Assembly: GCF_014649875.1 (NCBI RefSeq)
Contig: NZ_BMTW01000001.1
Span: forward strand, 310,001-374,000
Source: Streptomyces rubiginosohelvolus
GTDB taxonomy: Bacteria; Actinomycetota; Actinomycetes; Streptomycetales; Streptomycetaceae
Reading direction: 5' to 3'
Length of the DNA stretch: 64,000 nucleotides
Below the pieces are notes generated by a model. It made no database searches. It was not told the DNA's origin and saw only the letters and a list, made by a program, of their open reading frames with translations. This document shows, in pieces, positions 56,486 to 57,002 of the stretch. How positions within the stretch are numbered: position 1 is the stretch's first letter; every line of letters starts with the position of its first letter. A program made the translations under genes and the position numbers.

Positions 56486-56515
56486 TTGTCGGGGCGGCGG
56501 AATCAGGGCCATACT
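56486..56515 (+). promoter_or_regulatory. Promoter of the chorismate mutase leader transcript
   Basis: TTGTCG (56486-56491), 18-bp spacer, CATACT (56510-56515). Transcription would begin at about 56522-56523, at the ATG of the leader peptide, so the mRNA is probably leaderless. Confidence 0.7.
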
Positions 56516-56522
56516 GTCCGCC

Positions 56523-56594
56523 ATGCGTCAGCACACGACCTTCGTCTTTACCTATGGCATCCGGCCCGCCGGCTGCCATGGTCGTGCTGCTTGA
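56523..56594 (+). CDS. Phe/Tyr leader peptide of chorismate mutase gene
   Basis: 23-codon ORF encoding MRQHTTFVFTYGIRP then AGCHGRAA. Codons 7-11 read Phe-Val-Phe-Thr-Tyr, using TTT and TAT, both rare in this genome. It ends 24 bp before a strong terminator-like hairpin and 108 bp before the chorismate mutase start. A stretch within it (GGCCCG, 56563-56568) can pair with the left arm of that hairpin (56624-56629), giving an alternative fold. This is the layout of ribosome-mediated attenuation by phenylalanine/tyrosine supply. No RBS is needed if the transcript is leaderless. Confidence 0.75.
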   Translation: MRQHTTFVFTYGIRPAGCHGRAA

Positions 56595-56618
56595 GCTACT
56601 GACAAGCAACGTTCCAGG

Positions 56619-56644
56619 CGCCCCGGGCCAGCAGGCCCGGGGCG
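56619..56644 (+). terminator. Attenuator hairpin before chorismate mutase
   Basis: Perfect 11-bp arms (56619-56629 and 56634-56644) with loop AGCA, followed by TTCTG. It lies between the leader peptide and the structural gene on the same strand, so it acts as a conditional terminator rather than a gene end. Confidence 0.8.
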
Positions 56645-56702
56645 TTCTGCGTATCCGGGCCCGTTCGCCCCGGGTGGCCTCCGATCATCAGGAGTCACCA
56701 CC

Positions 56703-57002
56703 ATGAGCAGCATCAGCACCACGGACACCACCACGGCCACCGGCGCCCACACCGACGAGGCCGCCGCCCTGATCGGCGGGGCCCGGGAGCGTATCGACGC
56801 CCTCGACGACCGGATCATCGGCCTCGTCCAGGAACGGATGGCCGTCTCGGCGGTGATCCAGGAGGCCCGGATCACCTCGGGCGGCCGCCGGGTCAACCTC
56901 TCCCGTGAGACGGCCGTGCTCGGCCACTACAGGGACGCGCTGGGCAAGCCGGGCACCGCGCTGGCGATGACGCTCCTGGAGCTGTGCCGCGGGCGGGTCT
57001 GA
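56703..57002 (+). CDS. Chorismate mutase (AroQ type)
   Basis: 99-aa monofunctional mutase, converting chorismate to prephenate for phenylalanine and tyrosine. The AroQ helix 1 pattern is GARERIDALDDRIIGLVQERMAVSAVIQEAR, with the catalytic arginines and the conserved Asp; helix 3 is MTLLELCRGRV. It is short, as the small actinobacterial enzymes are, and these usually need a DAHP synthase partner for full activity, which is not encoded nearby. The ATG at 56703 has AGGAG 8 bases upstream. Expression is probably attenuated by a Phe/Tyr leader. Confidence 0.93.
   Translation: MSSISTTDTTTATGAHTDEAAALIGGARERIDALDDRIIGLVQERMAVSAVIQEARITSGGRRVNLSRETAVLGHYRDALGKPGTALAMTLLELCRGRV

Follow-up and report, generated by a model that had tools for sequence, protein, structure and literature searches.

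The aroR leader of Corynebacterium glutamicum, a leaderless leader located upstream of aroF, was reportedly described by Neshat et al. in 2014. It is cited in the available parts of PMC4046766 and PMC11802643, the latter stating that the pheA attenuator of E. coli responds to charged tRNA-Phe. Eight leader peptides are listed in Table 4 of PMC8079986 for Streptomyces lividans TK24 and, in the part of that source available, none is for phenylalanine (Phe), tyrosine (Tyr) or chorismate mutase. Seliverstov et al. (PMC1262725), in a passage naming Streptomyces coelicolor, S. avermitilis and several mycobacteria, saw no RNA regulation for the Phe/Tyr operons of Actinobacteria. The element described here is the leader of aroQ, a chorismate mutase gene of Streptomyces rubiginosohelvolus, identified in a stretch of 64,000 nucleotides (nt) of contig NZ_BMTW01000001.1 (positions 310,001 to 374,000, forward strand), hereafter the window. 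This leader is very probably a ribosome-mediated transcription attenuator, which would make aroQ transcription depend on how much charged tRNA-Phe and tRNA-Tyr is available.

The aroQ gene was identified in all 101 sampled genomes of the genus, from which 102 loci were taken and 99 could be assessed; the exceptions are L024 and L101 (contig ends) and L102 (a second aroQ copy). The core of the leader is a short open reading frame (ORF) with a Phe/Tyr motif, which precedes aroQ in 99 of the 99 loci. The sequence-only reading would have been refuted had this ORF or its aromatic codons not been kept in relatives, and both are kept. Codon identity is nearly fixed: Tyr is TAT in 99, the following Gly is GGC in 99, the second Phe is TTT in 97 and Thr is ACC in 97; the first Phe position is TTC in 88 and another residue in the rest, so that no other Phe codon occurs there. 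In 80 of 80 named loci (79 of Streptomyces and one of Actinacidiphila) the upstream sequence contains Phe-NNN-Tyr-GGC and then GCC, the core being TTT plus TAT every time, though TTC and TAC were allowed. Both codons are rare in the window, as that reading had also claimed, with TTT in 4 of 325 Phe codons and TAT in 22 of 319 Tyr codons of a baseline formed by 30 window ORFs taken with a crude filter.

A covariance model of the leader matched 239 of 245 genomes of the order at an E-value of 0.01, and 224 of 227 genomes of the genus (table count), with 2.3e-12 as the weakest match. The three genus genomes without a match are G135 and G159, where the aroQ match is absent as well as the leader, and G185, where 89 nt of contig precede the aroQ match, not enough room for a leader. 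The joint absence in G135 and G159 counts for the attenuator. Matches outside the genus were mostly weak, and one of them (G309, E 0.0073) belonged to a genome without an aroQ match. A second leader copy in the window genome was considered and rejected: there is one full-length match (3.8e-36), and the next one (E 0.15, L110) lies, by eye, inside an unrelated gene.

The features of the window locus are the following:

56486-56491, forward strand: -35 element TTGTCG, read from the sequence.
56510-56515, forward strand: -10 element CATACT, 18 nt after the -35 element and 7 nt before the leader ATG.
56523-56594, forward strand: leader ORF MRQHTTFVFTYGIRPAGCHGRAA, 23 codons and a stop codon, with no Shine-Dalgarno sequence in front.
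56541-56555, forward strand: sensor codons TTC GTC TTT ACC TAT (F7 V8 F9 T10 Y11), TTT being codon 9 and TAT codon 11.
56563-56568, forward strand: GGCCCG inside the leader ORF, read from the sequence.
56554-56579, forward strand: hairpin 1 (strand 1:2), ATGGCA-CCGG / CCGG-TGCCAT, which starts in the Tyr codon (fold).
56525-56596, forward strand: extended protector stem around hairpin 1, 56525-56540 with 56580-56596 (ribosome-free fold).
56563-56629, forward strand: antiterminator (strand 2:3), 24 pairs, 56563-56593 with 56603-56629 (stalled-ribosome fold).
56588-56608, forward strand: inner hairpin TGCTTG / CAAGCA, which caps the antiterminator and spans the leader stop codon (fold).
56619-56644, forward strand: terminator hairpin (strand 3:4), perfect GC stem of 11 base pairs (bp), CGCCCCGGGCC-AGCA-GGCCCGGGGCG, with the tail TTCTGCGT, read from the sequence.
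56690-56694, forward strand: aroQ Shine-Dalgarno sequence AGGAG, read from the sequence.
56703-57002, forward strand: aroQ, a stand-alone AroQ-type chorismate mutase of 99 amino acids, with profile matches to NF005894 and PF01817.

The sequence itself bears out most of what the sequence-only reading had described, namely a -35/-10 pair with 18-nt spacing before the ATG at 56523, a 23-codon ORF with Phe-Val-Phe-Thr-Tyr at codons 7-11 written with TTT and TAT, and a perfect 11-bp hairpin followed by the AroQ gene. The enzyme matches the profiles with E-values of 2.2e-35 (NF005894) and 3.1e-7 (PF01817), and its closest chains in the PDB are 5hub and 2qbv (Rv0948c of M. tuberculosis), both chorismate mutases; we take it to be of the AroQ-delta type. 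The pairing of GGCCCG with the hairpin, proposed as the antiterminator, is only the outer end of a predicted 24-pair stem and the least conserved part of it. The 133-nt leader folds with a z of -4.92, and 0 of 200 shuffles were equally good.

In 90 of the 99 Streptomyces leaders the -10 element is separated from the start codon by 6 or 7 nt, and in 80 it reads CATACT; the remaining nine fall outside the -10 pattern used and are, by eye, mostly of TAATAAT types. Near the -35 position a TTGG-like element is moderately conserved in 96 aligned regions (70-80% per base), with shifts in spacing. Motifs resembling a Shine-Dalgarno sequence precede 7 of the 99 leaders, versus 80 of the 102 loci when the 60 nt before the aroQ match are considered. 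From the position of the -10 element a leaderless transcript is predicted, starting at or next to the leader ATG. The start and the Tyr codon are 30 nt apart in 91 leaders, and in 8 others 24, 27, 33, 48 or 57 nt; all these distances are multiples of three, a regularity that is partly circular because most leaders were found as ORFs. Beyond the Tyr codon the reading frame is not conserved: an indel in L005, L038, L061, L080 and L086 (5 of the 79 leaders with the exact TGCCATGG) gives a tail of the RLPWSC type with the RNA unchanged. What is conserved is thus codons in the first half of the leader and RNA in the second.

These frameshifts bear on two other explanations. If the nascent peptide itself stalled the ribosome in response to a metabolite, the peptide would be expected to be kept, and FTYGxRPxGCHGRAA and close forms are indeed well kept in most Streptomyces leaders; but five natural frameshifts swap the tail and keep the RNA, variable residues precede the Phe/Tyr core and little past F-Y is common to other families, which leaves such arrest highly improbable. 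Slightly less probable still is a functional small protein followed by an ordinary intergenic terminator. A conserved ORF with its own promoter-like element would suit that explanation, but it is the RNA of the tail and not the protein that is kept, the mutually exclusive folds have strands in common, and leader and aroQ are jointly absent in two Streptomyces genomes.

Three mutually exclusive folds are backed in Streptomyces by pair counts or covariation, the extended protector more weakly. Pair counts and covariation were obtained from 36 of the 99 leaders (alignment A1), near-identical ones being removed. Antiterminator pairs were formed in 84.3% of cells versus 37.6-47.3% in slid controls, and extended protector pairs in 77.0% versus 27.8-48.9%, a comparison tilted towards both structures, as they were taken from one aligned sequence, which has to be set against these figures. 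In the antiterminator 8 pairs changed on both sides versus 2.7 in shuffles (0 of 500), with a covariation score of 0.106 versus 0.080 (standard deviation, sd, 0.005); its weakest part is the outer GGCCCG, where three pairs are broken in about half of the rows. The covariation score of the extended protector was 0.086 versus 0.065 (0 of 500 shuffles). As for the terminator, a perfect stem of at least 11 bp was identified in 83 of the 99 leaders, and the consensus fold has 4 of 24 pairs changed on both sides in some relative, all 4 in the terminator. A Streptomyces subgroup (L062, L064, L066, L067, L069, L074, L077, L082, L087 and L088) with MRKQLSFLFTYGTGRSGRHGSS-type leaders has CGGTCC/GGACCG as terminator arms, with changes on both of them.

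Hairpin 1 was followed in a wider set. In every one of 94 distinct segments its pairing sets in 0-5 nt from the start of the Tyr codon; z averages -1.83 and is below -1 in 81. The cross-family alignment (A4) comprises 31 of 39 listed reference sequences; L100, L167, L169, L170, L179, L293, L305 and L306 were left out because their register is shifted, either by an additional or altered codon following Tyr or by strong divergence. In these 31 diverse sequences the 11 pairs were formed in 81.2% of cells versus 36.1-47.8% when slid, the covariation score was 0.287, compared with 0.122 (sd 0.016) for shuffles (0 of 500) and no more than 0.127 for slid controls, and 38 cells changed on both sides versus 15.2 in shuffles (0 of 500). 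Further pair types, 15 versus 13.2, were not above the shuffles. Hairpin 1 is, as judged from this alignment, a feature common across families. An alignment across Streptomyces had been proposed from the outset as a check on the folds; in that genus the antiterminator pairs covary and some terminator pairs change on both sides, and hairpin 1 covaries across families.

The effect of a ribosome was modelled by folding the RNA up to the terminator 5' arm, with the stall edge assumed to be 13 nt after the first base of UUU. Averaged over the 99 leaders, the terminator arm paired with upstream RNA at 0.872 with a Phe stall, 0.600 with a Tyr stall, 0.357 with the ribosome at the stop codon and 0.551 with none. 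The Phe-stall value was reached by at most 5% of upstream-RNA shuffles in 58 of 71 distinct leaders.

Taken together, the conserved leader, its choice of codons, the promoter geometry and the support for the folds point to attenuation of the pheA/trp type, already proposed in the sequence-only reading. The exclusive folds, the Phe/Tyr codons and the branch-point enzyme fit that proposal, and stalling, termination and read-through are the events that it would imply. RNA polymerase would begin at the leader ATG and a ribosome would load on the leaderless 5' end, as the geometry suggests. With ample Phe and Tyr the ribosome would reach the stop codon, the inner portion of strand 2 would lie beneath it, and the terminator hairpin would form. 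When Phe, and probably Tyr, is short, it would stall at UUU or UAU, on top of the hairpin 1 5' arm; the 3' arm, now free, would pair with the terminator 5' arm in a long composite stem before the terminator 3' arm is made, and with this antiterminator formed the polymerase would read on into aroQ. In the absence of translation, hairpin 1 and its outer extension would hide strand 2.

Outside Streptomyces, the class sample comprises 296 genomes, 93 of them with aroQ at an E-value of 1e-8 and 63 of these outside the order; with three more genomes and two second copies, the outside-order set amounts to 68 loci from 66 genomes. In the rest of the order 15 of 18 genomes were searched for the gene, which is present in 14 and lacking in G309. 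A short ORF with Phe-Tyr or Phe-X-Tyr precedes aroQ in 14 of 14 loci from the other genera of the order and in 56 of the 68 loci outside it: 28 of 28 first copies in family f20, 18 of 27 in f6, 10 of 11 in the others and 0 of 2 second copies. The 12 loci without a leader are L171 (contig end), L172 and L177 (second copies) and nine of f6. Three loci (L174, L181 and L288) were overlooked by the first search and recovered via the core pattern. As a control on 81 of 82 loci (L181 left out), the leader search gave 67 hits on the forward strand versus 1 on the opposite strand, and 0 in 31 stretches located 520-1040 nt upstream; when a -10 element was required 6-7 nt before the start, the figures were 59, 0 and 0.

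Codons and -10 elements were counted in 68 leaders, 67 from other genera plus L143 from a Streptomyces genome. In 59 an element resembling a -10 (mostly CATGCT or CACACT) precedes the start by 6 or 7 nt, and in 67 TTT lies within two codons before Tyr; Tyr is TAT in 42 and TAC in 26. Examples, each followed by its stop codon, are VLDKRRFFYGYRSAVPVV (L178, f6), MLANRRFFYGYGPGSLAIVGC (L148, f3), ..LPPFYGDRARSPLHR (L292, f20) and VLTYAKFFYGNRTPAPVVV (L310, f48). Genus g11 of f6 is probably Mycobacterium, because the enzyme of L183 nearly matches 2qbv of M. tuberculosis (76 residues aligned with 10 differences, own count); the leader was identified in 18 of 19 g11 loci (own count). The leader of L167 has unusually many aromatic residues, MTRSAYFYGTGFFYEKSPAAVDAV before the stop codon. 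In L175 and L176 (f6, g38) and L274 (f6, g80) a GGCAAACT- or GGCAGACT-type element is followed, at aroQ, by a short ORF lacking the Phe-Tyr motif, and L274 has a terminator-like hairpin besides; these ORFs are possibly degenerate or retuned leaders.

The results support three changes to the sequence-only reading: the antiterminator is a long composite stem, the tail of the ORF is kept as RNA and not as peptide, and the leader spreads beyond Streptomyces.

The sensor codons differ in their relation to the folds. In Streptomyces the third U of UUU is unpaired (0.033) and that of UAU is paired (0.982). Conservation of UUU for base pairing was considered and rejected on this value: as the wobble U is unpaired, folding does not explain it, and slow decoding is, we infer, the reason why UUU persists. 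There is one anticodon for tRNA-Phe, and UUU is read by wobble. The attenuator might on these figures sense Phe alone, with UUU as the stall site and the Tyr codon kept mainly as the foot of hairpin 1: UUU is kept without a structural reason and the UAU wobble base is paired, TAC takes the place of TAT in 26 of the 68 leaders, the third base faces G in all 6 TAC rows of alignment A4, a Phe stall frees more of strand 2 than a Tyr stall (0.872 versus 0.600), and aroR of C. glutamicum responds to Phe and not to Tyr according to the available part of a review (PMC11802643). Such a sensor is nonetheless rather unlikely, Tyr being present in every leader found (though partly built in, all leader searches having required a Tyr codon) and both Phe and Tyr being products of the chorismate mutase branch. 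A broader reading is put forward tentatively, at somewhat less than even probability: an old device present in many families of the class, which would sense both products of the chorismate-to-prephenate step and whose key sensor would be UUU, a codon normally avoided and kept here not for structure but because tRNA-Phe decodes it slowly, by wobble. If this is true, the leader would read decoding speed at a single wobble codon.

Control at the level of translation, or by Rho, with the same Phe/Tyr sensor is a further explanation for some families, above all f20, where no convincing intrinsic terminator was identified and the leaders may work differently. PMC7356990, in the part available, terms the aroR leader of C. 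glutamicum a translational regulatory leader, and the distance from the terminator to the aroQ start, which is preceded by a Shine-Dalgarno sequence, is fairly narrow (43-125 nt, median 60, in the 99 Streptomyces leaders). An argument from a widely varying distance was dropped, since the earlier figure had been measured to the BLAST match; the 43-125 nt measured to the start codon left the assessment unchanged. The window hairpin, on the contrary, has the perfect GC stem of a terminator and ends 45 nt before the aroQ Shine-Dalgarno sequence, a distance that implies no direct masking of that site. Translational or Rho-dependent control in some families is quite unlikely.

Several results weigh against the attenuator. 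A strict consensus scan found no sigma-70 promoter and no U-tailed terminator at the leader; the -10 element CATACT deviates from TATAAT, and there are few T in the tail TTCTGCGT. Strong as the window hairpin is, its T tail is poor, and tails are richer in T in the f6 relatives, e.g. GTCTCTTGT. Free of ribosomes, the terminator arm still pairs with upstream RNA at a mean of 0.551, with 55 of the 99 leaders exceeding 0.4, which weakens the expected silence without translation. The full-length minimum-energy fold keeps the terminator even with a stalled ribosome (L001), so the antiterminator must act by forming first. The pairs changed on both sides are not above chance in the extended protector (7 versus 5.6, 113 of 500 shuffles) and no better than chance in hairpin 1 across families (5 versus 4.0, 125 of 500). 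Outside Streptomyces the antiterminator test is weaker, the value being reached by no more than 5% of the shuffles in 7 of 16 loci of f6, 1 of 12 in the rest of the order and 6 of 34 in the remainder (62 distinct loci scored of 67, the automatic terminator choice being unreliable in f20). Two f6 loci lack a strong hairpin, and in the f20 loci no clear intrinsic terminator was found, the hairpins having no T tails. Finally, nine f6 loci have the gene and no recognisable leader: L173, L175, L176, L182, L274, L277, L278, L283 and L312, belonging to g38, g80, g85, g125 and, in one case, g11.

Among other features of the window, a 528-residue ORF divergent from the leader promoter is read as guaA. 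No Rfam family, T-box included, reaches its cut-off at the leader, the best sub-threshold match being a Burkholderia small RNA family (23.9 of 112 bits), and identity with an Rfam cis-regulatory family was rejected for lack of a curated-score match there. The only curated-score Rfam match in the window is a cyclic di-AMP riboswitch (RF00379, 43522-43688, forward strand, 70.9 bits). Elsewhere in the same genome, no short ORF with a close Phe/Tyr/Trp pair was found in the 450 nt upstream, on the strand of the gene, of the DAHP synthase matches (L313 and L315) or of the prephenate dehydratase match (L316). Divergent from the class II DAHP synthase gene (L313), on the opposite strand, is an ORF resembling a trp leader that ends in NWWWTAHPAAR before its stop codon (reverse-strand reading) and is followed by a terminator-like hairpin.

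In the open-access literature, among the matches listed by title and start of abstract, no description was recognised as a Phe/Tyr leader before aroQ. No paper was found there for SCO4784, which we take to be the locus number of the S. coelicolor aroQ, and no experimental data on the aroQ leader were found. The word chorismate occurs 0 times in the available part of PMC13236596. This kind of attenuator is already known, and with no matching description among the matches listed the leader is rated a new example of a known mechanism, apparently undescribed before aroQ and unusually broad. If the attenuator is real, it fills a stated gap in the RNA regulation of actinobacterial Phe/Tyr operons and gives one testable rule for the flux of chorismate into Phe and Tyr in Streptomyces and in the presumed mycobacterial relatives. 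The chorismate-to-Phe/Tyr branch feeds many natural products of Streptomyces. With a nearly invariant UUU standing two codons downstream of a UUC, in one peptide and in a UUU-poor genome (4 of 325), the leader would be a clean natural experiment on codon-specific sensing.

The described systems resemble the window leader in different features. The pheL/pheA system of E. coli shares the Phe codons in a leader ORF before a chorismate mutase gene; its pheA enzyme, chorismate mutase-prephenate dehydratase (CM-PDT), is bifunctional, whereas the AroQ of the window is stand-alone. The leader peptides of S. lividans TK24 (trpL1, leuL2, ilvL and others; PMC8079986, part available) share hairpins and a leader ORF before amino acid genes, which is leaderless there and predicted to be so in the window. 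The logic proposed here is also that of the classical attenuators of Actinobacteria, trp, leuS and trpS, in the available part of Seliverstov et al. (2005, PMC1262725). The aroR leader of C. glutamicum, before the DAHP synthase gene aroF, has in common, as far as the available parts of the sources go, a short leader peptide with clustered Phe/Tyr codons (F-Y-F), an aromatic-pathway gene, an actinobacterial host and regulation by ribosome stalling, which is the proposed mode for the window leader. It differs in regulating the first step of the shikimate pathway and not the Phe/Tyr branch point, and the two are likened by these features and not by descent.
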